Shown: piece after piece, positions 52,461 to 63,867 of the stretch | Layout of the letters: each line of letters opens with the position of its first letter | Numbering within the stretch: the first letter of the stretch is position 1 | From: an uncultured Pelagibacteraceae bacterium | GTDB taxonomy: Bacteria; Pseudomonadota; Alphaproteobacteria; Pelagibacterales; Pelagibacteraceae | Assembly: GCA_902635685.1 (NCBI GenBank) | Contig: CACPOY010000001.1 | Location: 1 to 64,000 of the forward strand | Reading direction: 5' to 3' | Length of the DNA: 64,000 nt | Position numbers and translations under genes: made by a program | The notes under the pieces: model-generated | Databases searched by the model: none | What the model saw: only the letters and a program-made list of their open reading frames with translations | What the model was told of the DNA's origin: nothing

Positions 52461-53798
52461 TTAATCATAAAACATTTCATTCGGGAAATTTTCCCTAATA
52501 TAATTGATCATATCCTTATCACCAAAATTTTTCCATTTACCTATTCTTGATCTTGACCAGTCTAATGAAAAAAATTTACCATCATATTTTGTATTTTTTA
52601 AAAGTTTAATGTCCAGAAATTTTTCTAATCTTTCAGTTTCTCTCTCATTTTCAAAAATTAATTTTTCGAATTGAACATGTAAAATATTTTTGTTTTTTTG
52701 TTTTAGAAAATGTTTATATTGGTTTGCGTAAATTTTACAAAAATCTTTGACATTATTAGGAAAATTGCGCGCGAGTTTGTTTTGACTCAATGAACTGAGA
52801 TACACATCCCTTGGATCTCTAGATACAATGATTACTTTAGTCTCCTTAGGTAAAATTTCTAAAGTTTCATCAGCTTCCTCTGGTAATACACCTTGGTCTA
52901 AAAGTAAATATTTTTTTTTCAAGGTTATTATTTTATCATCGTACCAAAAAAAATTTTTTACATAATTATCAATAATAGACTTGAATATCTTGTTGAGATA
53001 ATTTGAAAAAATTAGATCAATTTCGTCTTTACTAAATTCTTTAACCTTAATTAAAAAACTATCATCTTCAATTTTCTTGCTTTTTAAGTGTTCGATCAAT
53101 TCTTGGTAAAAACTTAAATTTCTATAATGATTCCACCAATTAAATTTGTGCCTTACATCAATCAAATCATTTATAAAATCATTTGTATAATTTTCAAAAT
53201 TATCGTTTGTCAATTTTGCTAATGCAAAACCTTGTTGATACTTTAATTCACTTGGCCAAAAAATTTTAGTGAATAAATTTCTTTTTGATAGTCTTGAATT
53301 CAATTTTGTTTGATTAATATAATCTTGGATATAAGCGTAATTATTCCAATAAGAGTTTCTTTTTAATGATCTTCTTAAATCAACTAATCCTCCAGGATCT
53401 TTGATTAATCTAAACTCAAAAGTATTTCCCTTTGGTTTGGGATCAATGAATCCAATATGTTCTCTTAGAAAATGAACCACTGAACTTGATCCTGTGGCAC
53501 CAAAACCTGAAACTACGACCGGTATGGGCTCATAATTAGCTGTATTACAAAATTTTTTAATATCAGGATTATTTGAATAAATATAAGGCTGTATTAATTC
53601 GGCTTGTTTAGGCTCACATCTTAATATTATGTGGTCACTATTTAATCCTTTTAAAAACTTGTTAGTAAACTTTAGTAATTTGGATTGATTATTTTTCAAT
53701 ATTTCAAATTCTGATATTTTAGAATTTTGAATTTTTACTTTATTAAATATTTCAATATCAAATAATCTTAAAAAATATTTTAATAATTTTTTAATCAT
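52461..53798 (-). CDS. Sulfotransferase-like protein
   Basis: A 445-aa protein. The PAPS-type P-loop is PVVVSGFGATGSSSVVHFL near residues 92-110, and the 3'-phosphate motif KVIIVSRDPRDVYLSSLS comes late, with LHVQFEKLIFENERE and a final SLDWSRSRIGKWKNF. The first 75 residues and the long middle helical region are specific to this subgroup. It would sulfate a glycan, or it may be a sulfotransferase-fold protein with another donor. It overlaps the carbamoyltransferase gene by 8 nt. Confidence 0.8.
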   Translation of the reverse strand: MIKKLLKYFLRLFDIEIFNKVKIQNSKISEFEILKNNQSKLLKFTNKFLKGLNSDHIILRCEPKQAELIQPYIYSNNPDIKKFCNTANYEPIPVVVSGFGATGSSSVVHFLREHIGFIDPKPKGNTFEFRLIKDPGGLVDLRRSLKRNSYWNNYAYIQDYINQTKLNSRLSKRNLFTKIFWPSELKYQQGFALAKLTNDNFENYTNDFINDLIDVRHKFNWWNHYRNLSFYQELIEHLKSKKIEDDSFLIKVKEFSKDEIDLIFSNYLNKIFKSIIDNYVKNFFWYDDKIITLKKKYLLLDQGVLPEEADETLEILPKETKVIIVSRDPRDVYLSSLSQNKLARNFPNNVKDFCKIYANQYKHFLKQKNKNILHVQFEKLIFENERETERLEKFLDIKLLKNTKYDGKFFSLDWSRSRIGKWKNFGDKDMINYIRENFPNEMFYD

Positions 53799-55422
53799 TA
53801 TTTTTTATTAAAATCCTATCACCAATTATCAAATAGTCTATTCCGCTGGCATAAAAAGTTGAAATTGCATCTTCTGGGGTATTAACGTTAGGTTGCCTGT
53901 TAAGATTGAAGGAAGTATTGATTAACACTGGATTTTTAGACAATTTTCCAAATTCATTAAGAATGTTTTCTATAAGCTTATTTTTACCCTTTTCCAATAA
54001 TTGTACTCTTGCAGTATTATCTACGTGAACACAGCTTGGAATTAATTGACTAATGCCTGGTTTTGCATCGCATGTTACGGTCATATGTCTATAGTCAACA
54101 CCCTTTTTAATTTTAAAGTATTTCGTAGAGTCTTTTTTCATGACAATTGGTGCAAAAGGTCTAAATTCCTCTCTATACTTAATTTTCGCATTAAGAATAT
54201 TTTTCATGTTTTTATTCATAGGATTTGCAAGGATAGACCTATTTCCTAATGCTCTAGGTCCAAATTCTTGACGTCCTTGAAAAACTGCAAAAATTTTTGA
54301 CTGATTCAATTTTTTTGCTACAAATTTTTCATTTAATTTGATCGTCTTATTATAGATACCGTTATTTTTTAAAACTTTGGCAATATGTTTATTGTTGTAT
54401 TGATTTCCTAAGTATACATGCTCTTTAACTTTAATTCTTTTATCAAATTTGAGTGAGGTAATTAAAGCAGCACCTAATGAATTACCAGCGTCAGATGATG
54501 CTGGTTGAACGTAAAGATTTTTTATAAAACTTAACTCTGAGATTTTTTTATTCATTGTACAATTTAATCCCACTCCGCCTGCTATACATAAATTTGATAT
54601 TTTTGTTTTTTCATATGCCCACTTGATTAAGCTAATTGCAGCGTCATTTAATTTTTTCTGAGCTGAAGCTGCAATATCAATTTTATTAATAAAGTCTTTT
54701 TTTTTTAATCTTTTTTTAATCTTTAAAATTTTAAGTAATTCTTTTGAGTAAAAAGGTTCTTGTCTTGTTAAGTCTTTTGAATATTTAAACTCGTTTTTAG
54801 AGATTATTTTTTGGTTTAATTTGTAATATCCTTTACCAACTTCTAAAATTTTATCCATATTATATTTAGGTTTTCCATATGAAGCTAGACCCATTAATTT
54901 ATATTCATCATTATCTATTTCAAAACCTAGAACCTGTGTAATTAGACTATAAAAAATTCCTAAACTATTTGGTTTTTTAAACTCTTTAATTCTCTTAATT
55001 TGATTATTTTTTCCAATTGAAATTGTAGTCGAAATTCCATTACCAGAATAATCGGCTGTTAAAATAATTGTCTTTTCAAAACCTGAGGGATAGAAAGCGG
55101 ATGCCGCATGACATAGATGATGATCAACAAAAACAATTTTAGGGCAATAACCAAAGTTAAAGTCAAAGTAATCTCTTATTTTATTTCTTAATTGAGGCAA
55201 ATTAGAAGCAAAGGCAATATAATCAATTTCTTTAATTTTAGTATTTTGATGTTTTAAACATTCTTTAATAGCGAAGGTTGGAATAAGACCTCTAGAGTGT
55301 TTAATTCTATTAAACCTTTCTTCCTCTTGAGCAAATACTACATCGCCATCAATAATTAATGTTGCAGCTGGATTTTCAATTCTGTGAGTAAATCCTCCCG
55401 AAATACCAATTATTTTTGTCAT
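53791..55422 (-). CDS. Carbamoyltransferase, NodU/CmcH family
   Basis: A 543-aa protein of the O-carbamoyltransferase family. The N-terminal Kae1-like domain has VFVDHHLCHAASAFYPSGF (metal-binding histidines), ILTADYSGNGISTT and CIAGGVGLNCTMN. The C-terminal YrdC-like region has GRQEFGPRALGNRSILANP, REEFRPFAPIV and LINTSFNLNRQPNVNTPEDA. It makes carbamoyl adenylate from carbamoyl phosphate and ATP and passes the carbamoyl group to a sugar hydroxyl, as in Nod factors. It is the first gene of a minus-strand run. Confidence 0.95.
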   Translation of the reverse strand: MTKIIGISGGFTHRIENPAATLIIDGDVVFAQEEERFNRIKHSRGLIPTFAIKECLKHQNTKIKEIDYIAFASNLPQLRNKIRDYFDFNFGYCPKIVFVDHHLCHAASAFYPSGFEKTIILTADYSGNGISTTISIGKNNQIKRIKEFKKPNSLGIFYSLITQVLGFEIDNDEYKLMGLASYGKPKYNMDKILEVGKGYYKLNQKIISKNEFKYSKDLTRQEPFYSKELLKILKIKKRLKKKDFINKIDIAASAQKKLNDAAISLIKWAYEKTKISNLCIAGGVGLNCTMNKKISELSFIKNLYVQPASSDAGNSLGAALITSLKFDKRIKVKEHVYLGNQYNNKHIAKVLKNNGIYNKTIKLNEKFVAKKLNQSKIFAVFQGRQEFGPRALGNRSILANPMNKNMKNILNAKIKYREEFRPFAPIVMKKDSTKYFKIKKGVDYRHMTVTCDAKPGISQLIPSCVHVDNTARVQLLEKGKNKLIENILNEFGKLSKNPVLINTSFNLNRQPNVNTPEDAISTFYASGIDYLIIGDRILIKNND

Positions 55423-55579: not shown

Positions 55580-57649
55580 ATGGAAAAAAATAACGATAAA
55601 AATTTTTATATAAAAAATTTAATTTCTGCACTTGTCTTTTTATATATAGTTCTAAACATATTTGCTTCCTATAAAATCTTTCCAGTCAGTGGATATTATT
55701 TAATTACAGATTTAGTTTATTTATGTTTTGGATATCTTTTATGCAAAAAGAGCAAAGATGATTATAATTTCGGAATAAAAAAGTTTTTTTATCAGACTAA
55801 AGATTACATTTTATTATATTTTTTATGTTTATTGATTATTCTTATGCCCACTTTTTATGGGCACTCACATCAATTTTTAACACACTTTGCTAAGGCAGAA
55901 ATATTTTCATTGTTTTTTTTTTCAAATGCCTTTTTTTGGTTTCATGGAATTAATTTTCATGACCACATTATTTCGGTAAACGGAACATACGACGGTCTTT
56001 TTACATTTATTTTTTCTAGCTACTTTATTTCCCAACTATTACAATTGTTTATATTAAGTATATTGCTCAATTATTTTTTTAATACTTTTTTGAAAAAATT
56101 TAAACTTATATTTTTTTTCATATTTTTTCTAGGGAGCTATTACTTAACATTTTATATTTCAAATAAACTTGAAAGTTTTTATTTTTATTCACCTTTCTTC
56201 TACATAATACCTTTTTTAATGGGGTTTTTTTTAAAATTAATTAAAGAAAATGATTCTTTAATAAAGAAAATTGATAACGTATATATATCTAAATTTATTT
56301 TTTTTTTTTCAATCCTAGTTTTAATTTATTATCTCTTTTTCTTAAATTTTACAGATTTTTATCTAAGTCTTAATAGAAAAATATTTTTTTATTTTTGTTG
56401 TTCATTTATAATTTTAAATTTAACCAAAAGTTCTTGGATTAAAAAAGAAGAAGTATTTAATCTTAATATAAAAAAAATTCATAAGGGTATATTTTTTTTA
56501 TTTTTAATACATTTTTTATTAATATTTTTTTCAAAATATAAATTTATACCAAGTCATATTTTTAATATCGATCAGCTTTTAATATTATCGATTGTAACAA
56601 TTTTAATTTTTTTAACACATTATTTTTTAAAAAATTTCAAAAACACAAAAACTATTGTAAAAATTTTGATTCCCTTGATTATTAATATATCTTTATGTTT
56701 AGTAATATTAGATAAAGATGGATTTAAAAAAAAATATCCAAATATTCTGACAAATTTAAGTGCAAAAAAAACTGCATATTTTGAATTAAAACAAGATGGC
56801 AAAATATGTTTAAACCGTAAAGATAATTTTTGTACTTATAATAAAAAAAAAACAAAAACCATAATATTAGTCGGAGCGTCAGAACTAGCACCACTTCAAA
56901 CAAGCCTCCTAAAGTACTCAATGGAAAATGATTATAAATTTATTTCTATGACGATAATTAATTGTCCTTTAATTCTAAATTTATTTAATATTAATAGAAA
57001 AACTAGAGATAAAGATACAAATCAGTGTGATCTTGATGTCCAAAAAAATAGAATGGATATAATCAAAAAACATAATGATGCAATAATTATTTATTCTGTA
57101 AGAACTGACTATTTTTATAATGAGACCTTTATAAAAGACATAGAAAATGACAAACCAATTTTTGCAAAAAGCAGAACTTATTTAGATGATCAAGTTAAGG
57201 GAGTAAAAAGTTTTGAAGAAAGACAAAAAGATTTAATACTCAATATAAAAAACTCTGTTAATGAAATTTTAAAAACTAATAACAAATTAATACTTTTATA
57301 CCCTATCCCAGAAATTGGATTTAGTTTAAAAAAAAAAATTAATTCAAAAATTAAAAAAAGTTTTTTAAGTGAAGAATTTAGATTTGATAGTGAAATTATA
57401 TCATTACCCTACAGTATATATTTAGAGAGGCAAAAAGAATTTTTTGCTATTTTTGAAAATATGTCAAATCAGAATCTAATTAAAATAAAAACGGCTAATG
57501 TATTTTGTAATAATTATATCCCAAATAGATGTGTAACACATGACTTTAAAAATATATATTATGATGATAGAGATCATTTAAGTATAGAAGGGGCTCGATT
57601 AGTAACAAAAGAAATTATTAATAATTATAAACTTTACATAAATAAATAA
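55580..57649 (+). CDS. Acyltransferase-3/SGNH fusion with a degenerate AT3 half
   Basis: A 689-aa protein. Residues 1-380 are about ten or eleven spans laid out like an OafA acyltransferase-3 domain. Residues 410-689 are an SGNH hydrolase-like periplasmic domain with Ser434 in VGASELAP and the late DxxH site as DRDH (residues 663-666) followed by LSIEGARLV. The AT3 catalytic His near the end of span 1 appears to be Asn26 (YIVLNIF), and the R-x-x-R-like motif after span 2 is not seen. I infer that acyl transfer runs through the SGNH part, fed by the MBOAT of the next gene. They meet at a shared base. Confidence 0.8.
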   Translation: MEKNNDKNFYIKNLISALVFLYIVLNIFASYKIFPVSGYYLITDLVYLCFGYLLCKKSKDDYNFGIKKFFYQTKDYILLYFLCLLIILMPTFYGHSHQFLTHFAKAEIFSLFFFSNAFFWFHGINFHDHIISVNGTYDGLFTFIFSSYFISQLLQLFILSILLNYFFNTFLKKFKLIFFFIFFLGSYYLTFYISNKLESFYFYSPFFYIIPFLMGFFLKLIKENDSLIKKIDNVYISKFIFFFSILVLIYYLFFLNFTDFYLSLNRKIFFYFCCSFIILNLTKSSWIKKEEVFNLNIKKIHKGIFFLFLIHFLLIFFSKYKFIPSHIFNIDQLLILSIVTILIFLTHYFLKNFKNTKTIVKILIPLIINISLCLVILDKDGFKKKYPNILTNLSAKKTAYFELKQDGKICLNRKDNFCTYNKKKTKTIILVGASELAPLQTSLLKYSMENDYKFISMTIINCPLILNLFNINRKTRDKDTNQCDLDVQKNRMDIIKKHNDAIIIYSVRTDYFYNETFIKDIENDKPIFAKSRTYLDDQVKGVKSFEERQKDLILNIKNSVNEILKTNNKLILLYPIPEIGFSLKKKINSKIKKSFLSEEFRFDSEIISLPYSIYLERQKEFFAIFENMSNQNLIKIKTANVFCNNYIPNRCVTHDFKNIYYDDRDHLSIEGARLVTKEIINNYKLYINK

Positions 57650-59088
57650 TGCTTTTTTTTTCTGAAGAATTTTTATTCATCTTTCTTCCAATAGTTATTT
57701 TGCTAACATACTTGTTTCATAAATTTATTAGCCCTGTTTATTCATTATTTTTTTTGTCATTTTCTTCGATAATATTTTATTCAATACATAACATTAAATC
57801 AGTTTATATAATTTTATTCTCAATATTATTTAATTTCTTAATGTGCAAAGAGATTGTCAAAAATAAAAATAAAATGATCTTTTTTTTTACAATACTTTCT
57901 AATCTTTTTTTATTAGGTTATTTTAAATATAGAAATTTTTTTATTGAAAACATTAATTATGTTTTCTTTTCAAATTTTCAAATTGCTGATTTAATTATTC
58001 CTTTAGCTATTTCCTTTTATACATTTCAACAAATTTCATATATTATTGATGTATACAATGACAGAGTTGAGGCAGTATCCTTCAAAGAATATTTATTTTT
58101 TATATCCTTTTTTCCTCAATTAATTGCAGGCCCAATCGTTTTAATGGAAGAGATGAGAGAGCAAATCTCAAATTTTCTCAAGAAAGATTATAAAATTTTC
58201 AAATATTTTGTATTTGGTTTTTTTATTTTCACTATTGGGTTATTCAAAAAAATAGTTATTGCAGATACAATTGGTATTTATGTGGATGAATGGTTTGTAA
58301 ATCTAGCTGATTTAAACTTTTATGAAAGTTGGATCGCAATTATTAGTTTTGCAATCCAAATTTATTTTGATTTTTCAGGTTACACTGATATGGCAATTGG
58401 ATTAGCACTGATTTTTGGGTTCAAATTACCTGTTAACTTTAAACTTCCATATAAATCATTATCAATAATCGAGTACTGGCAGAAATGGCATATTACCATG
58501 ACACGATTTTTCATGAATAATATTTACGTACCTATAGCAGTAAATTTTAGTAGAAAATATTATGATAAAAACTTAAGCCTTATTATTTCTAGTATTGCGC
58601 TCCCCTCGCTATTGACTTTTTTTTTAAGTGGTTTGTGGCATGGAGCAGGTTGGAAATTTACTATATTCGGGTTAATTCATGGATTTGCAATAGTAATAAA
58701 TCAAATTTGGAAAAAATATACAAAAATTAAATTGAACAAATATATTTCTTGGACTTTAACAATGTTTGTTGTTCTTATTTCACTGGTTTTTTTTAGAGCT
58801 GAATCGTTTAATTCATCAGTTATCATGATTGAAAATCTTTTACTTTTAAAAGATCTTTCACAAATATTAACCTTTAAAATTAGTTTATTTAAAGATAATT
58901 TTGATAAATTCTTTTTTTTGGTAATTTTCGTTTTTTCAGTTTTTTTCATAAAATATGAAAAAAATTATTCTGAATTAAAGGATAATATTAAAATAGGATA
59001 TTATTCGTCTTTTGTAATTATACTTATTTTTTATGCTTCAATTTATTTGGTTGAAAGAAAACAACCATTTATTTATTTCCAATTTTAG
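57649..59088 (+). CDS. MBOAT O-acyltransferase (DltB/AlgI-like) with C-terminal FIYFQF motif
   Basis: A 479-aa membrane-bound O-acyltransferase. The two family histidines are His281 in YWQKWHITMTRF and His331 in FLSGLWHGAGW, and the fold includes FPQLIAGPIV and IQIYFDFSGYTDMAIG. The chain ends PFIYFQF, placing Tyr476 in a C-terminal hexapeptide. Such a hexapeptide carries the acyl group across the membrane in Dlt-like systems, on DltX or fused to the MBOAT. The family takes an acyl thioester from the cytoplasm. It starts on the last base of the SGNH gene, and its end overlaps the converging carrier gene by 20 nt. Confidence 0.92.
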   Translation: MLFFSEEFLFIFLPIVILLTYLFHKFISPVYSLFFLSFSSIIFYSIHNIKSVYIILFSILFNFLMCKEIVKNKNKMIFFFTILSNLFLLGYFKYRNFFIENINYVFFSNFQIADLIIPLAISFYTFQQISYIIDVYNDRVEAVSFKEYLFFISFFPQLIAGPIVLMEEMREQISNFLKKDYKIFKYFVFGFFIFTIGLFKKIVIADTIGIYVDEWFVNLADLNFYESWIAIISFAIQIYFDFSGYTDMAIGLALIFGFKLPVNFKLPYKSLSIIEYWQKWHITMTRFFMNNIYVPIAVNFSRKYYDKNLSLIISSIALPSLLTFFLSGLWHGAGWKFTIFGLIHGFAIVINQIWKKYTKIKLNKYISWTLTMFVVLISLVFFRAESFNSSVIMIENLLLLKDLSQILTFKISLFKDNFDKFFFLVIFVFSVFFIKYEKNYSELKDNIKIGYYSSFVIILIFYASIYLVERKQPFIYFQF

Positions 59089-59335
59089 ATTTATTTAATT
59101 TTGATATTATTAGTTTAGTAACATTGTTTATTGAACAAAAACTATTTATATCACTAGTAGTGAATTTAATTTTGTACTTTTTTTCACAAGCAACTAAAAA
59201 TGTTACCATTGCTAGGCTATCGTAAACAGGTAATTTTGATAAGTTGTTTTCTTTGATAATTTCCTCCTTTCCTAGCTTTAATATTTTAGATAGTATTTGA
59301 GTAATATTTGACTTTATTAATATTTCTTCTTTCAT
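59069..59335 (-). CDS. Acyl carrier protein (DltC-like)
   Basis: An 88-aa carrier protein with the phosphopantetheine Ser40 in PVYDSLAMVTF, an acidic helix II and the usual four-helix layout (ITQILSKILKL at the start, NNVTKLIISKL at the end). It holds an acyl or aminoacyl thioester for the ligase and MBOAT. Its ATG overlaps the stop of the 48-aa microprotein gene (ATGA). A dedicated carrier inside a glycan locus, separate from fatty acid synthesis, supports an acylation pathway. Confidence 0.9.
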   Translation of the reverse strand: MKEEILIKSNITQILSKILKLGKEEIIKENNLSKLPVYDSLAMVTFLVACEKKYKIKFTTSDINSFCSINNVTKLIISKLNKSKIGNK

Positions 59336-59478
59336 TCAAAATAGTTAAAAACTCTATCCTCTACGATTAGTAAGATATTATATATTTTTTTTAAAATAAA
59401 ATCTCCGTTTATAATAATAAAAAAAATTAAAACTAAAATTAATGTAATTATAAAAAATACTTTAATACTTAATTTCAT
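59332..59478 (-). CDS. 48-aa single-span membrane microprotein (DltX-like candidate)
   Basis: A frame from ATG 59478-59476 to TGA 59334-59332. The first six residues are MKLSIK, then one hydrophobic span runs to about residue 24, and the tail ends LIVEDRVFNYFE. The start lies inside the last 17 nt of the ligase gene, and the stop overlaps the carrier start by 4 nt, so it is coupled on both sides. DltX of the dlt operon is a ~50-aa single-span protein with a C-terminal aromatic Tyr motif. The size, topology, neighbours and F-N-Y-F ending fit, but there is no strict sequence match. Confidence 0.6.
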   Translation of the reverse strand: MKLSIKVFFIITLILVLIFFIIINGDFILKKIYNILLIVEDRVFNYFE

Positions 59479-60949
59479 TAGAATATCTGTTAATCAGTCT
59501 AGCTCTATCGATTTTTCCATTTTTATTTATAGGAAATTCTTTTAGCACAAATATCTTCTTAGGTATCATATGTGGTGGCAAAACTTTAGACATATATAAA
59601 ATCAGGTTATTTTCATCAATTTTTTTTTTAGTCTCAACTACTGAAAATAGAAAAACTTCATATTCATTTTTTTTTTTATAAAAGGTAATTGAATTAGAAA
59701 CGTCATCATTTTTTCTTAAGTTTATATCAATTTCTAATAATTCTACTCTGTAACCTTGAATTTTAACAACCGTATCATTTCTTCCAACAATAAAGGAGTT
59801 CTTTGACTTAACTTTACAAATGTCATTGGTTTTATAATATTTTTTATTTGAAATTTTAACAAATTTTTCATTATTTTTATTGTCCAAATATCCATTCACT
59901 ACATTCGGCCCTGATATTAATAGTTCATCATTCTTTATAAGAGTTTTAATTAGATGATAAGGCTGACCGATTGGTACCAAACCATTATCTCTTATTACTT
60001 GGTAATCTTTTTTTTTATATTCATAAATATGAGACCAGGGAGATAGTTCTGTGCTACCATAACAATTAAATAAAGATTTACTTTTTAAATTTTTTAAAAT
60101 GTAATCTAATATCTTAAAATAAAATGGCTCACCACAACAAATAAGAATCTTAAGATTAATTTTTTTTGTAATTTGTTTTGAAATTAAAATTCTGTTTATA
60201 GTGGATGGCACAGTTATAAAGCAATTAACTTTGTTTGACCTAATTAATTCTAACGGCATTACACTTTCTGAAAAAAATTTAGCTGGAACTATTGTACCCC
60301 CAAAATAAATACAAGGTATGATTATATTCAAGGAGATAACAAATGAGATATCGTGAATATCTACAATCACAAGTTTTTTTTCATTTTTGTAAATAGTCTC
60401 ACACTGGAAATTAAAACTAGTTATGAAATTTTTAAAACTTATCGGAACTCCTTTTGGAATACCTGTTGACCCAGAAGTAAAATAAATTACTGAAATATCA
60501 TTATCTTTATATCTTCTTTTTTCTAATACAGATTTCTTTGATTGTTTAATATCATCTGTTGTTATAAATCTGATTTTTGAGGCTTTAAGTATTTTAATAA
60601 TTTTTTTGTTAAATGAAGAATTTCTATTTTGTAATATGAATAGATCTATTTGGCTTTCTTTAATCTGCTTTTTCATTTTTTCTAAAGGCAAGTTTACAGA
60701 TATAGGAATCCATATGTTGTTTGATAATATTATTGATATTGCTGTGGCATAAAGCTCGAATGATTTTTCACAACAAACATAAATATTATTTCTTTTTTTT
60801 GGTAAGTAATTAGTTATTGTAAAAAATTTTCGTAAGAATTCTTTTAAATCTGCGTAAGTGAAAACTTCTTGATTATATCTATAAAATATATTTTTCGAAT
60901 TTAAATTTTTGAAAACTTGCTTAAAAAAATTACGTGCTTGCATCGTCAC
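59462..60949 (-). CDS. AMP-forming ligase/adenylation enzyme (DltA-like)
   Basis: A 495-aa adenylate-forming enzyme. The P-loop is YFTSGSTGIPKGV (residues 156-168). A5 is NCYGSTELSPW, A7 YYKTND, A8 VGRNDTVVKIQGYRVELLEID, and the catalytic lysine is in INKNGKIDRARL near the end. The A4 region reads IHDISF with Asp200 at the position that binds the alpha-amino group in amino-acid-activating domains. Length and lack of a fused carrier fit DltA. It would load an amino acid onto the carrier at 59069. The start could be Met1 or Met3. Confidence 0.9.
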   Translation of the reverse strand: MTMQARNFFKQVFKNLNSKNIFYRYNQEVFTYADLKEFLRKFFTITNYLPKKRNNIYVCCEKSFELYATAISIILSNNIWIPISVNLPLEKMKKQIKESQIDLFILQNRNSSFNKKIIKILKASKIRFITTDDIKQSKKSVLEKRRYKDNDISVIYFTSGSTGIPKGVPISFKNFITSFNFQCETIYKNEKKLVIVDIHDISFVISLNIIIPCIYFGGTIVPAKFFSESVMPLELIRSNKVNCFITVPSTINRILISKQITKKINLKILICCGEPFYFKILDYILKNLKSKSLFNCYGSTELSPWSHIYEYKKKDYQVIRDNGLVPIGQPYHLIKTLIKNDELLISGPNVVNGYLDNKNNEKFVKISNKKYYKTNDICKVKSKNSFIVGRNDTVVKIQGYRVELLEIDINLRKNDDVSNSITFYKKKNEYEVFLFSVVETKKKIDENNLILYMSKVLPPHMIPKKIFVLKEFPINKNGKIDRARLINRYSNEIKY

Positions 60950-60990: not shown

Positions 60991-62049
60991 ATGAAACTAG
61001 GATATTTTGCTTTTCCAATTCATCCAAAAAATAAAAATTATTATTCTTGTCTCAGAGAAGACCAGGATGCAATAATTCTTTGTGATAAGTTGGGTTTTCA
61101 TGAGGCATTTATCGGTGAACACTTAACAGATGAGTATGAAAGGATTACATCAAGCCAAATTTTCCTTTCTAGTCTAATTAATCTTACAAAAAATATAAAA
61201 TTGGCCACAGGCACAATTAATTTACCAAATACTCATCCCGTGAAGGTGGCATCAAACATTTCTATGTTAGATCATATGAGTAAAGGTAGGATTATTATGG
61301 GCATAGGACCTGGCAGTCTCGTGTCAGACATGGAAATTATGGGTAATCTTAAAAAAAAAAGAAATGAGATGTTTTTAGAGGCTATTAAGCATGTTTTAGA
61401 CTTATGGTCTAAAAAACCTCCTTACAACTTAAGAGGAAAATATTGGAATATAAACACAAAAAAAACATACGATAAAAAACTCTCGATTGGATCAGTTGTC
61501 AAGCCTTTCCAAAAACCTAGGCCCGAAATAGTTTTGACATCATTAAGCAACAATCCTCATCCAATAAAGGCTCTTACATCACGTGGTTGGAATTTATTAA
61601 GTTCAAATTTTTTAAATGAAAATGTACTAAAAACTCATTTTCTATCAATTCAATCAATTAAAAGAAAAAAAATAAATTGGAGAGTTGCAAGAAAAATATT
61701 TGTTAATTACGACAAAAAAGTTGTAAACAAATATGTGTTTTCATCAAAAAGTCCTTACTACAAAGTTGTTTCGCAAATATTAAATAAATTAAAAAAATAT
61801 AACAGATTGGATGTTGTCAAAAAGAACCCTTTAGACAAAAAGGAAAAAATTGATATTGAAGCGTTAATGAAAAAATTAATAATATGCGGTGATCCATCAA
61901 CAGTTAGTGAAAGAATTTTAGAACTAAAAGAAAAATCAGGTAATTTTGATACCATTACATATGTGGGTATTGATTGGATGAACAAGAAATTAGGAATAAA
62001 ATCTCTTGAACTTATGGCAAATAAAGTTATGCCAAAGTTAAATGATTAA
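60991..62049 (+). CDS. Luciferase-like (LLM class) flavin-dependent monooxygenase
   Basis: A 352-aa bacterial luciferase-type TIM barrel. It has LGYFAFPIHPKNKNYY, CDKLGFHEAFIGEHLTDEY, IKLATGTINLPNTHPVKVA, LDHMSKGRIIMGIGPGS and the late CGDPSTVSERILEL segment. LLM enzymes use FMNH2 or F420 to oxidise a small substrate, and some act on carrier-bound amino acids. It starts 41 nt from the divergent ligase gene, so the two probably share a regulatory region. Its 3' end overlaps the next gene by 8 nt. Confidence 0.88.
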   Translation: MKLGYFAFPIHPKNKNYYSCLREDQDAIILCDKLGFHEAFIGEHLTDEYERITSSQIFLSSLINLTKNIKLATGTINLPNTHPVKVASNISMLDHMSKGRIIMGIGPGSLVSDMEIMGNLKKKRNEMFLEAIKHVLDLWSKKPPYNLRGKYWNINTKKTYDKKLSIGSVVKPFQKPRPEIVLTSLSNNPHPIKALTSRGWNLLSSNFLNENVLKTHFLSIQSIKRKKINWRVARKIFVNYDKKVVNKYVFSSKSPYYKVVSQILNKLKKYNRLDVVKKNPLDKKEKIDIEALMKKLIICGDPSTVSERILELKEKSGNFDTITYVGIDWMNKKLGIKSLELMANKVMPKLND

Positions 62050-63235
62050 TAATCATAATTATTATATTTTAGTTAATAAGGGTTTATTAATACCCAAGAG
62101 TGTAAGTAGAAACATTATAAATTTCATCAACCTAAAAAACAAAGATTATGCAATTAATGATCTAAGAGTTTCAAAATATTTAACATATGAAGAATTAAAA
62201 AATCTAAAAAAAGAATTTTTAAAATTTAAAAAAAAATTTTATAAAAAAAAAGAAAATTCAAGAAACTATGCAATATATAAGTTTATAAGTAGCAAATATT
62301 CAAAGAGTAAAAAAATGTATGAAAGACTTTCTTCTAACACAGCTAAAAAAATAAATGGCTATATTCCATCACTTTCAACATTATTGCTTCAATCCAAAAA
62401 AATAAATAAAATTAATCACGATAGAAAAAGTTCAATTGAGATTTTTAATAGTAAATTAAAAAAATTTCTCATCGATTGTGATTTTACTAAACCAGATAAA
62501 AATATGTTTAAAAATTTAAGTAAGGTAATTCACAAATATAAAAATAAAACAAATAAACAAATAATTTTTTTTTCCGCAGTCTGTCCAGACTATTCTACAG
62601 AAAAAATAGGTAACATACATCGATATACTTTCGACAGTATCAAAGGTAATATTGGCTTAGGTGCAAAAAGAATAATTAAATCTAAGAGAAAAATTGAAAA
62701 ATTTTTTAATACGAATAGAATAAATTCTTCACATATTATATCAGTGGGAGATTTTGAGGCTTTTAGTAAAAATAATCAAGAAAGATTAAAATTAAGTGAA
62801 AAAGAAATTTTATCAGAAATTTCAAATTCTCAAGAAAAAATAAATGAAGCTTTTAAAAAGTATAAATTCTTAAAAAGTCAAACTTTCACAAAATACTTTG
62901 GTGGAAAAAATAATTGGCTTAAGACTAAAAAATTTTTCAAAGAAAAAATTAAAAATTACGATTTTGGAAACTCAAAAATTTCTGTTATTAAATTCAAAAA
63001 AATACTTAAATCTAGACTTAAATTATATAAAAGATGGTATGGCGATTTAACTGAGAAAGAATATGAGGATATCCTTATAGATCAAGCTGCTGAGTATGCA
63101 TCTATGGGATATCTTATAGAAAATAAATTTAAAGATGCTATCATAATAGGAGCGGACCATCATAGAATGATAGACTTTTACTTGATTAAATCTAATATTG
63201 TTGTTATTTATTTGAAAAAAAATTACGAGACATGA
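62042..63235 (+). CDS. Unrecognised 397-aa protein
   Basis: I do not recognise the family. The chain is soluble. An N-terminal part of about 160 residues is helical and lysine-rich. The more conserved-looking core contains FFSAVCPDYSTEK, NIHRYTFDSIKGNIGLGAKR, SSHIISVGDFEAFS, TKYFGGKNNWLKTKKFF, and a late DQAAEYASMGYLI plus AIIIGADHHRMIDFYL. The clustered Cys/Asp/Glu/His residues suggest an enzyme. Overlaps of 8 and 4 nt with its neighbours place it in the same pathway as the flavin monooxygenase and 2OG oxygenase. Confidence 0.75.
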   Translation: MINNHNYYILVNKGLLIPKSVSRNIINFINLKNKDYAINDLRVSKYLTYEELKNLKKEFLKFKKKFYKKKENSRNYAIYKFISSKYSKSKKMYERLSSNTAKKINGYIPSLSTLLLQSKKINKINHDRKSSIEIFNSKLKKFLIDCDFTKPDKNMFKNLSKVIHKYKNKTNKQIIFFSAVCPDYSTEKIGNIHRYTFDSIKGNIGLGAKRIIKSKRKIEKFFNTNRINSSHIISVGDFEAFSKNNQERLKLSEKEILSEISNSQEKINEAFKKYKFLKSQTFTKYFGGKNNWLKTKKFFKEKIKNYDFGNSKISVIKFKKILKSRLKLYKRWYGDLTEKEYEDILIDQAAEYASMGYLIENKFKDAIIIGADHHRMIDFYLIKSNIVVIYLKKNYET

Positions 63236-63867
63236 TCAACTCAGATAATCATAATATAAAAGAATTCATTAACGACTACAATCATAAAGGCACTATTCAA
63301 ATTTCAAGAGAGAACGGACTATATCCTTTTGATAATGAGGATTTAGAAAAACTCTCGGAATATTGTAAGAATGTAGAAAAAGAATACATACAGATTGGTG
63401 ATGCTGGTGAAAAAAATAATTTAATGGTTGGAAGATTTATGACCGATGTAGATAAACCACAAGTAGTTGAAAACCCTTACTCAAAAAAAGTTATTGATGT
63501 TTTAAATAAACCAAAAGTAAAAAATTTTATAAAAGATATTTTAAATCTACAAGATGATTTTTATTTGAGAAGAATTCAGTTTAATCAAATAGACAAAGAT
63601 TGTTTTGTTGGCTATCATTTGGACACAGATAGCAACCCTGACTATATAGCTGCTGGTGTAATTCAAATGGGTAGCAAATTTGAGGGTGGTTTGTATAGAG
63701 TGTATCAAAAAGATGAGAGTTTTTTTGATTATAAATCTGGTTATGGTGACTTAATTATAAGTAACTGTAAATATCCTCATGAGGTTACTAAAGTTACTGA
63801 GGGTGAAAGAAAATCATTAGTTTTTTTTGTATCAAATCATGGAAGTAATAATAGAAGAAAAAATTAA
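63232..63867 (+). CDS. 2-oxoglutarate/Fe(II)-dependent oxygenase
   Basis: A 211-aa jelly-roll protein. The iron site is His129-x-Asp131 in GYHLDTDS and His183 in YPHEVTKVTEGERKS, with Arg193 placed to bind 2-oxoglutarate. It would hydroxylate or otherwise oxidise a small molecule, probably the group built by this operon. It overlaps the unknown gene by 4 nt and a following partial gene by 29 nt. Confidence 0.85.
   Translation: MINSDNHNIKEFINDYNHKGTIQISRENGLYPFDNEDLEKLSEYCKNVEKEYIQIGDAGEKNNLMVGRFMTDVDKPQVVENPYSKKVIDVLNKPKVKNFIKDILNLQDDFYLRRIQFNQIDKDCFVGYHLDTDSNPDYIAAGVIQMGSKFEGGLYRVYQKDESFFDYKSGYGDLIISNCKYPHEVTKVTEGERKSLVFFVSNHGSNNRRKN

Follow-up and report, generated by a model that had tools for sequence, protein, structure and literature searches.

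In the 64,000-nucleotide window analysed here, which is the whole stretch taken from contig CACPOY010000001.1 of an uncultured Pelagibacteraceae (SAR11-family) bacterium, five contiguous genes encode an AT3-SGNH fusion, an MBOAT O-acyltransferase, a small carrier protein, a single-span protein of 48 amino acids (aa) and an AMP-forming ligase. We propose that this module forms an acyl relay in which a carrier-fed MBOAT and an SGNH domain would esterify a surface glycan with a small, probably non-amino acid, a reading that we give an even chance of being correct. The protein families, a C-terminal FXYXXF motif, the loss of two AT3 motifs and the loss of a key Asp are read from the sequence, and from these we infer the catalytic steps, the link between the two operons, the cargo and the acceptor. 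A preliminary description had placed the five genes in two convergent operons and matched them one-to-one with DltA, DltX, DltC, DltB and a DltD-like transferase. The open reading frames (ORFs) and their coordinates confirm the contiguous genes and the convergent operons. The one-to-one match holds for the ligase (best matched by DltA models), the carrier (with a DSL site) and the MBOAT (DltB model), but not for DltX and DltD.

The MBOAT (479 aa; 57649..59088, + strand) matches PF03062 in Pfam (1.4e-22) and DltB chains in the PDB (4.6e-21), and its only NCBIfam match is the DltB model TIGR04091 (152.5 bits, with a cut-off of 375). Residues H281 and H331 are invariant in all 11 rows of an MBOAT alignment (A1). 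The protein ends in QPFIYFQF, and thus bears on itself the acyl-shuttle motif defined in PMC12148441 (codons of FIYFQF at 59068..59085, + strand). As described there, PatA acetylates the Tyr of a C-terminal FXYXXF, and the same motif occurs on DltX. By alignment, the features of an MBOAT-SGNH relay are all present, namely the invariant His, a C-terminal Tyr within FXYXXF, and an adjoining SGNH domain with Ser-Asp-His.

That SGNH domain belongs to a 689-aa protein (55580..57649, + strand) with Pfam matches to Acyl_transf_3 (PF01757, 6.4e-9) and SGNH (PF19040, 5.9e-26). In an alignment with two plasmid AT3-SGNH controls, both of which have R-X10-H and RXXR, the SGNH half keeps its Ser (VGASEL) and Asp-His (DRDHLS), the AT3 half has neither motif, and no R-X10-H occurs within the first 70 residues. 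According to PMC9833829, AT3 domains conserve R-X10-H absolutely, and the signal remaining in OafA is reported as 0.07% for R14A and 0.33% for H25A (PMC7448272). Judged by alignment, the acetyl-CoA motifs of the AT3 half are lost and this half is degenerate. Matches to PF19040 were found in 44 of 297 family genomes (own genome included). R-X10-H is kept in all 38 of the other SAR11 AT3-SGNH genes with readable N-termini, counted besides the module and genome G179 (three locus sets of 25, 12 and 1; Fisher p 0.0013); set aside were loci with an unreadable N-terminus (L085/L130, L096/L131 and L118) and two that do not look like AT3 (L126 and L128). The AT3-SGNH protein of G179, the sole other exception seen, has R-X10-N instead, keeps RXXR and the SGNH Ser and Asp-His, and also lies beside a carrier-linked MBOAT. 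We propose that the 689-aa protein is a putative glycan acyltransferase fed by the MBOAT. Its earlier assignment as a DltD-like transferase was rejected, because its SGNH domain is fused to a degenerate AT3 half instead of standing alone.

The ligase (495 aa; 59462..60949, − strand, with a GTG start, or an ATG at 60943) is of the kind that includes DltA and the adenylation (A) domains of nonribosomal peptide synthetases (NRPS). It matches the AMP-binding family of Pfam (1.7e-38), and its best NCBIfam models are those for DltA (198.2 bits, cut-off 476; 194.3 bits, cut-off 559.85), followed by an amino-acid adenylation model at 182 bits. The best fatty-acyl-CoA model reaches 124 bits compared to 198 and 194 bits with the DltA models, and assignment as a fatty-acyl-CoA ligase was rejected for this reason. 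In a 12-row ligase alignment, the position at which DltA and GrsA have their amino-binding Asp holds D in 11 rows, including both GC-rich dlt-like operons discussed below (loci L146 and L147) and Latilactobacillus curvatus DltA, and Val in the module ligase (Val202 counted from the ATG at 60943; codon at 60338..60340, − strand). This Asp is described as coordinating the alpha-amino group, with an aliphatic residue in its place in A domains for hydroxy and keto acids (PMC11253843). Another source likewise gives an aliphatic residue at this site in keto-acid A domains, with one proposed exception that retains Asp (PMC10949194). The module ligase retains the Cys of the CGE stretch, a residue that by alignment corresponds to the chirality Cys of DltA, which is C269 in the Bacillus cereus enzyme (PMC11253843). 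The Val in place of the amino-binding Asp makes a hydroxy acid, a keto acid or another non-amino acid a more likely cargo than D-alanine, and the aminoacyl decoration originally put forward is doubtful on the same ground.

The acyl or peptidyl carrier protein (88 aa; 59069..59335, − strand) matches PF00550 (PP-binding) at 8e-5, above the cut-off, and alignment with DltC and other carriers identifies residue 40 as the Ser of its DSL site. It thus supplies the carrier with a Ser site that is characteristic of DltC. The 48-aa protein, which ends in EDRVFNYFE (59332..59478, − strand), is encoded by a gene that overlaps both the ligase and carrier genes. It matches no Pfam family at E up to 10, neither DltX (PF12459) nor DUF5989; as a control, L. 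curvatus DltX matches PF12459 at 1.8e-20. Its C-terminal FNYFE is without the final F of FXYXXF, and its hydrophobic segment is 23 residues away from the last Tyr, versus 15 in L. curvatus DltX. The corresponding distance is 10-11 residues in three SAR11 microproteins (see below) and in a DUF5989-like string. With no family match, an incomplete motif and deviant Tyr spacing, its identification as DltX or DUF5989 was abandoned, and by sequence it would be a weak DltX analogue at best. Such a protein would be dispensable as DltX because the MBOAT bears its own FXYXXF motif.

In the proposed relay, the ligase would activate a small acid with ATP and load it onto the phosphopantetheine arm of the carrier, as expected from the families of these proteins. 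The MBOAT would take the acyl group from the carrier on the cytoplasmic side and pass it to the Tyr of its own FIYFQF, by analogy with PatA and DltX. From there, the SGNH domain of the AT3-SGNH fusion would take up the acyl group and transfer it to the glycan, and the 48-aa protein is perhaps an accessory membrane subunit. Counted in favour of this scheme are the Dlt kinship of ligase, carrier and MBOAT, the lost AT3 motif, the change from Asp to Val, and two comparative results, namely a carrier-linked branch of the MBOAT tree and the gene sets at L146 and L147.

For this comparison, an MBOAT profile (A2) was matched in 108 of 349 phylum genomes and 9 of 377 order genomes (own genome included in each), and 89 non-SAR11 loci were examined, consisting of the best-scoring part of the phylum matches plus two additions. 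Flanks of about 3.5 kb were read for 60 loci (some shortened at contig ends) and of initially 1.5 kb for the other 29, of which 20 were re-read more widely with a profile search, one (L059) was re-read more widely by ORF list (as L135), and eight stayed at 1.5 kb. All 89 MBOATs bear the motif, 88 as FXYXXF and one (L158) with Y in first place. A carrier gene is near nine of the 89 (L139, L146, L147, L158, L191, L193, L052, L053 and L054, the last three also read with wider flanks as L232-L234), as judged by our own profile at E up to 0.01; a weak 46-residue carrier match in L037 (8.3e-4) was dropped before counting. At L059, a ligase adjoins the MBOAT, with no carrier match.

In a FastTree phylogeny of 103 MBOATs rooted on DltB, the module MBOAT groups at a support of 0.898 with those of the SAR11 genomes G213, G179 and G020, each with adjoining ligase and carrier genes, and a seven-member SAR11 branch has support 1.0. 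Pairwise identity of the module MBOAT is 36-40% with four SAR11 MBOATs that have a carrier gene nearby, compared with 30-32% for six that have none. A branch of 17 tips (support 0.965) has 12 that are carrier-linked, versus 2 of 85 outside it (Fisher 3.7e-10), although the tips are not independent, the MBOAT and carrier profiles derive in part from the same loci, and 12/17 is not an unbiased probability. The loaders in this branch are DltA-like (the module, L146 and L147), acetyl-CoA-synthetase-like (L031-L033) or FkbH (L030, L158, L052 and L054). Loci L146 and L147, from GC-rich Pseudomonadota, each encode a motif-bearing MBOAT, a carrier and a DltA-like ligase that keeps the Asp and scores 326-358 bits with the DltA models, below their cut-offs. 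At L146 the ligase and carrier genes are convergent to the MBOAT gene, as in the module, and the SGNH protein is of the AlgX type; at its sister L147 all genes are on one strand.

FkbH proteins above the cut-off occur with a carrier near motif-bearing MBOATs at L030, L158, L232 and L234, of which L030 is in the SAR11 genome G259, and this combination could lead to glyceryl esters on surface glycans. Locus L191 has a DxDNTLW signature, as in the FkbH loci. Upstream of an MBOAT ending in FIYFQF, L139 (1331-3285) encodes a PhpK-like radical SAM protein, which scores below the cut-off, and a carrier.

Within the SAR11 family, the ligase gave matches in 7 of 297 genomes (E up to 1e-20) and the MBOAT in 12 of 297 (E up to 1e-10), own genome included in both. 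Ten SAR11 MBOAT neighbourhoods were covered, with the G027 locus (L029) left out. Three genomes hold all Dlt part types, so the co-occurrence anticipated in the preliminary description is borne out for the kinds of parts, but with a different, acetyl-CoA-synthetase-like ligase. In G213 (L031), one strand encodes an SGNH-like protein, a motif-less MBOAT of 438 aa, a 38-aa microprotein ending in FIYMIF, the acetyl-CoA-synthetase-like ligase and a carrier. The motif-less MBOAT, ligase and carrier recur in G020 (L032) and G179 (L033), where a 49-aa microprotein ending in WIYTVF or FLYFNF is encoded on the opposite strand and the SGNH partner is an SGNH-like protein (G020) or an AT3-SGNH fusion (G179). 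Models for acetate-CoA ligase match these ligases at scores under the cut-off (for L032, 390 bits with a cut-off of 725), and an ACAS_N domain is found in the L031 and L032 ligases. Identification of the G213 and G020 proteins as SGNH is the weakest step of this comparison, as it relies on GSS/GDS and D-x-H or D..H motifs recognised by eye; a PDB search with them gave chance matches only and Pfam gave no SGNH family.

None of the three microproteins matches the DltX family, and those of L031 and L032 score 19.5 and 18.8 bits with DUF5989, below the cut-off of 27. One of the three motifs starts with W rather than F. As a check on chance, 41 of 6585 short ORFs (30-80 aa, from 194 loci) end in [FW].Y..F. 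Of those 41, 34 are DUF5989-like (30 of them from loci fetched for DUF5989), and only three remain beyond DltX and the three microproteins.

Several results weigh against the proposed relay. The ligase and MBOAT operons are convergent, and the nearest motif-bearing SAR11 MBOATs (L133 and L134, both in G713) have no carrier nearby. A PDB comparison ranks NRPS A domains (157 and 148 bits) above the first D-alanine ligase (142 bits), and the module ligase shares 24% identity with L. curvatus DltA, compared with up to 30% for other SAR11 island ligases. McyG is reported to accept Phe despite a Val at the Asp position (PMC11253843). Clustering with fatty-acyl ligases and failure of the genes to co-occur elsewhere had been named beforehand as results that would speak against a Dlt-like module. 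The ligase is not among the fatty-acyl ligases, but ligase and MBOAT matches at the above E limits occur together in 0 of 296 other family genomes. None of the genomes that hold the six SAR11 ligase relatives has an MBOAT match, and some of these relatives adjoin a carrier gene; therefore, a ligase and a carrier can function together in a different pathway. The dependence among tree tips described above adds to these points.

The main alternative, which we regard as possible, if doubtful, is that the module is two unrelated operons that happen to converge. The AT3-SGNH protein and the MBOAT would be an ordinary O-acetylation pair fed by acetyl-CoA, and the ligase, 48-aa protein and carrier would belong to a separate pathway, in which the luciferase-like monooxygenase and the 2OG-Fe(II) oxygenase encoded nearby could perhaps tailor the carrier-bound acid. 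Besides the convergent orientation, this agrees with the six ligase relatives lacking an MBOAT match, at least three of which (L011, L013 and L014) lie beside a carrier gene, with the presence of both oxygenase genes next to the module, and with an MBOAT that bears its own motif like the acetyl-CoA-fed PatA. However, the module MBOAT groups with three MBOATs that are linked to a ligase and a carrier, and the acetyl-CoA motifs of the AT3 half are lost, in part also in G179. Moreover, a related MBOAT is accompanied by convergent ligase and carrier genes at L146, and the sister locus L147 carries the same set on a single strand.

True aminoacylation, with D-alanine, glycine or another amino acid loaded through an altered pocket and the 48-aa protein acting with the MBOAT, is unlikely: the DltA models are the best NCBIfam matches, the CGE Cys is kept, McyG indicates that the Asp is not absolutely required (PMC11253843) and a Bordetella dra locus is reported to place D-alanine on the outer membrane (Taneja 2013, as cited in PMC9858536 and PMC4448142), but the Asp is a Val where 11 of 12 rows, GC-rich operons and L. 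curvatus DltA among them, have D, and the scores are far under the DltA cut-offs of 476 and 560. A viral origin of the module is not indicated. A ligase search of viral contigs found no relative, and the MBOAT profile found nine loci there, eight of them motif-bearing and without a carrier or ligase match. The ninth (L255) has a ligase, a motif-less MBOAT and a carrier in a row, like an ordinary dlt set, and is probably a bacterial dlt operon. A ligase scan of wider genome contigs yielded two distant Clostridia loci.

Compared with known systems, the module resembles Dlt of Gram-positive bacteria in combining a ligase, a carrier, an MBOAT and an SGNH domain, with DltA and DltB as the best NCBIfam models. 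Unlike Dlt, it has the shuttle motif on the MBOAT, an AT3-SGNH protein in place of DltD, and two convergent operons. We do not count it among Dlt systems, since it lacks five defining traits: a ligase reaching the DltA cut-off, the Asp and Cys pair (of which the Cys is kept), a motif-less DltB scoring at the cut-off, a recognisable DltX and a stand-alone DltD. With the PatA/PatB and AlgI/AlgX pairs it shares an MBOAT ending in FXYXXF and an SGNH acyltransferase domain, but these pairs are said to use acyl-CoA (PMC12148441), whereas a ligase and a carrier adjoin the MBOAT here. Its AT3-SGNH protein has the domain order of the O-acetyltransferases OafA/B and OatA, but not R-X10-H and RXXR. The operons at L146 and L147 are similar in their own-motif MBOAT, carrier and DltA-like ligase, and L146 also in its convergent layout, and they differ in the higher DltA scores and retained Asp of their ligases. 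The Bordetella dra locus, likened by description only, is perhaps another close counterpart of the module. In Vibrio cholerae, AlmE, AlmF and AlmG glycylate lipid A with a transferase of another family and are not known to involve an MBOAT. By description only, they are similar to the module in using a DltA-like ligase for surface decoration in a Gram-negative organism (AlmE is also discussed in PMC11253843).

In a 2025 article on this mechanism, MBOAT-SGNH pathways other than Dlt are said to lack a carrier and a DltX-like microprotein (PMC12148441). The loci described here suggest otherwise, with carrier genes next to MBOATs in a single Pseudomonadota branch and separate motif-ending microproteins in three SAR11-family genomes. 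More tentatively, we suggest that this branch comprises carrier-fed MBOAT-SGNH systems whose loaders (DltA-like, acetyl-CoA-synthetase-like, or FkbH for glyceryl groups) have been swapped to bring acids other than acetate to glycans. In SAR11 the motif would have moved from the MBOAT to a microprotein, an independent reinvention of DltX, and the module would transfer a non-amino acid by way of the SGNH domain of an AT3 protein whose acetyl-CoA machinery is dead. If true, the loader plugged into a common relay would determine which acyl groups Gram-negative surfaces bear. The SAR11 lineage is abundant in the oceans, and its surface glycans probably bear on phage attack. A literature search, with subscription journals mostly outside its scope, found no account of such a gene set in SAR11.

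On the + strand, the AT3-SGNH and MBOAT genes overlap by one base, and on the − strand, the ligase and 48-aa genes overlap by 17 bases and the 48-aa and carrier genes by 4, an arrangement suggestive of a coupled operon on each strand. The 3ˊ ends of the two operons overlap by 20 bases. The source genome (G000) comprises 991,918 bases in 33 contigs and is 79.5% complete. By Pfam and NCBIfam, a sulfotransferase (52461-53798) and a NodU-like carbamoyltransferase (53791-55422) adjoin the module, which is consistent with its location inside a surface-glycan island, as initially described. Divergent from the ligase gene (60991-63867) are genes for a luciferase-like monooxygenase, a 397-aa protein for which Pfam gave no family, and a 2OG-Fe(II) oxygenase; the three might tailor a carrier-bound acid.

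Microproteins of the DUF5989 family (PF19451) were matched in 95 of 197 SAR11-family genomes, and none was matched in G000. The loci are L197-L226, together with L037 (3261-3413 and 5379-5531) and L038 (7191-7343). In all 30 DUF5989 loci read, the microprotein has the DltX-like C-terminus FIYTIF, and a NodU-like carbamoyltransferase, recognised by a text pattern, is close by. Often encoded between the two is a protein of some 126 aa that is SxtJ-like by eye and matches PF19588 in L037. A literature search found no mention of DUF5989, and these microproteins might act as shuttle peptides when carbamoyl or acyl groups are transferred to the surface.

Some 10 kb past the ligase end of the module, the contig reaches a 23S rRNA gene at its 3ˊ end, and two tRNAs and a 16S rRNA gene come next (contig C1 of G000, from about 70.7 kb). 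Ending beside this 23S rRNA gene is a run of genes mostly past the window (L017, 11658-15676, on the same contig), whose products we take, by eye, to be a CysC-type kinase, a phosphoenolpyruvate (PEP) mutase, a phosphonopyruvate decarboxylase and an alcohol dehydrogenase. This region is possibly a phosphonate-bearing glycan island.

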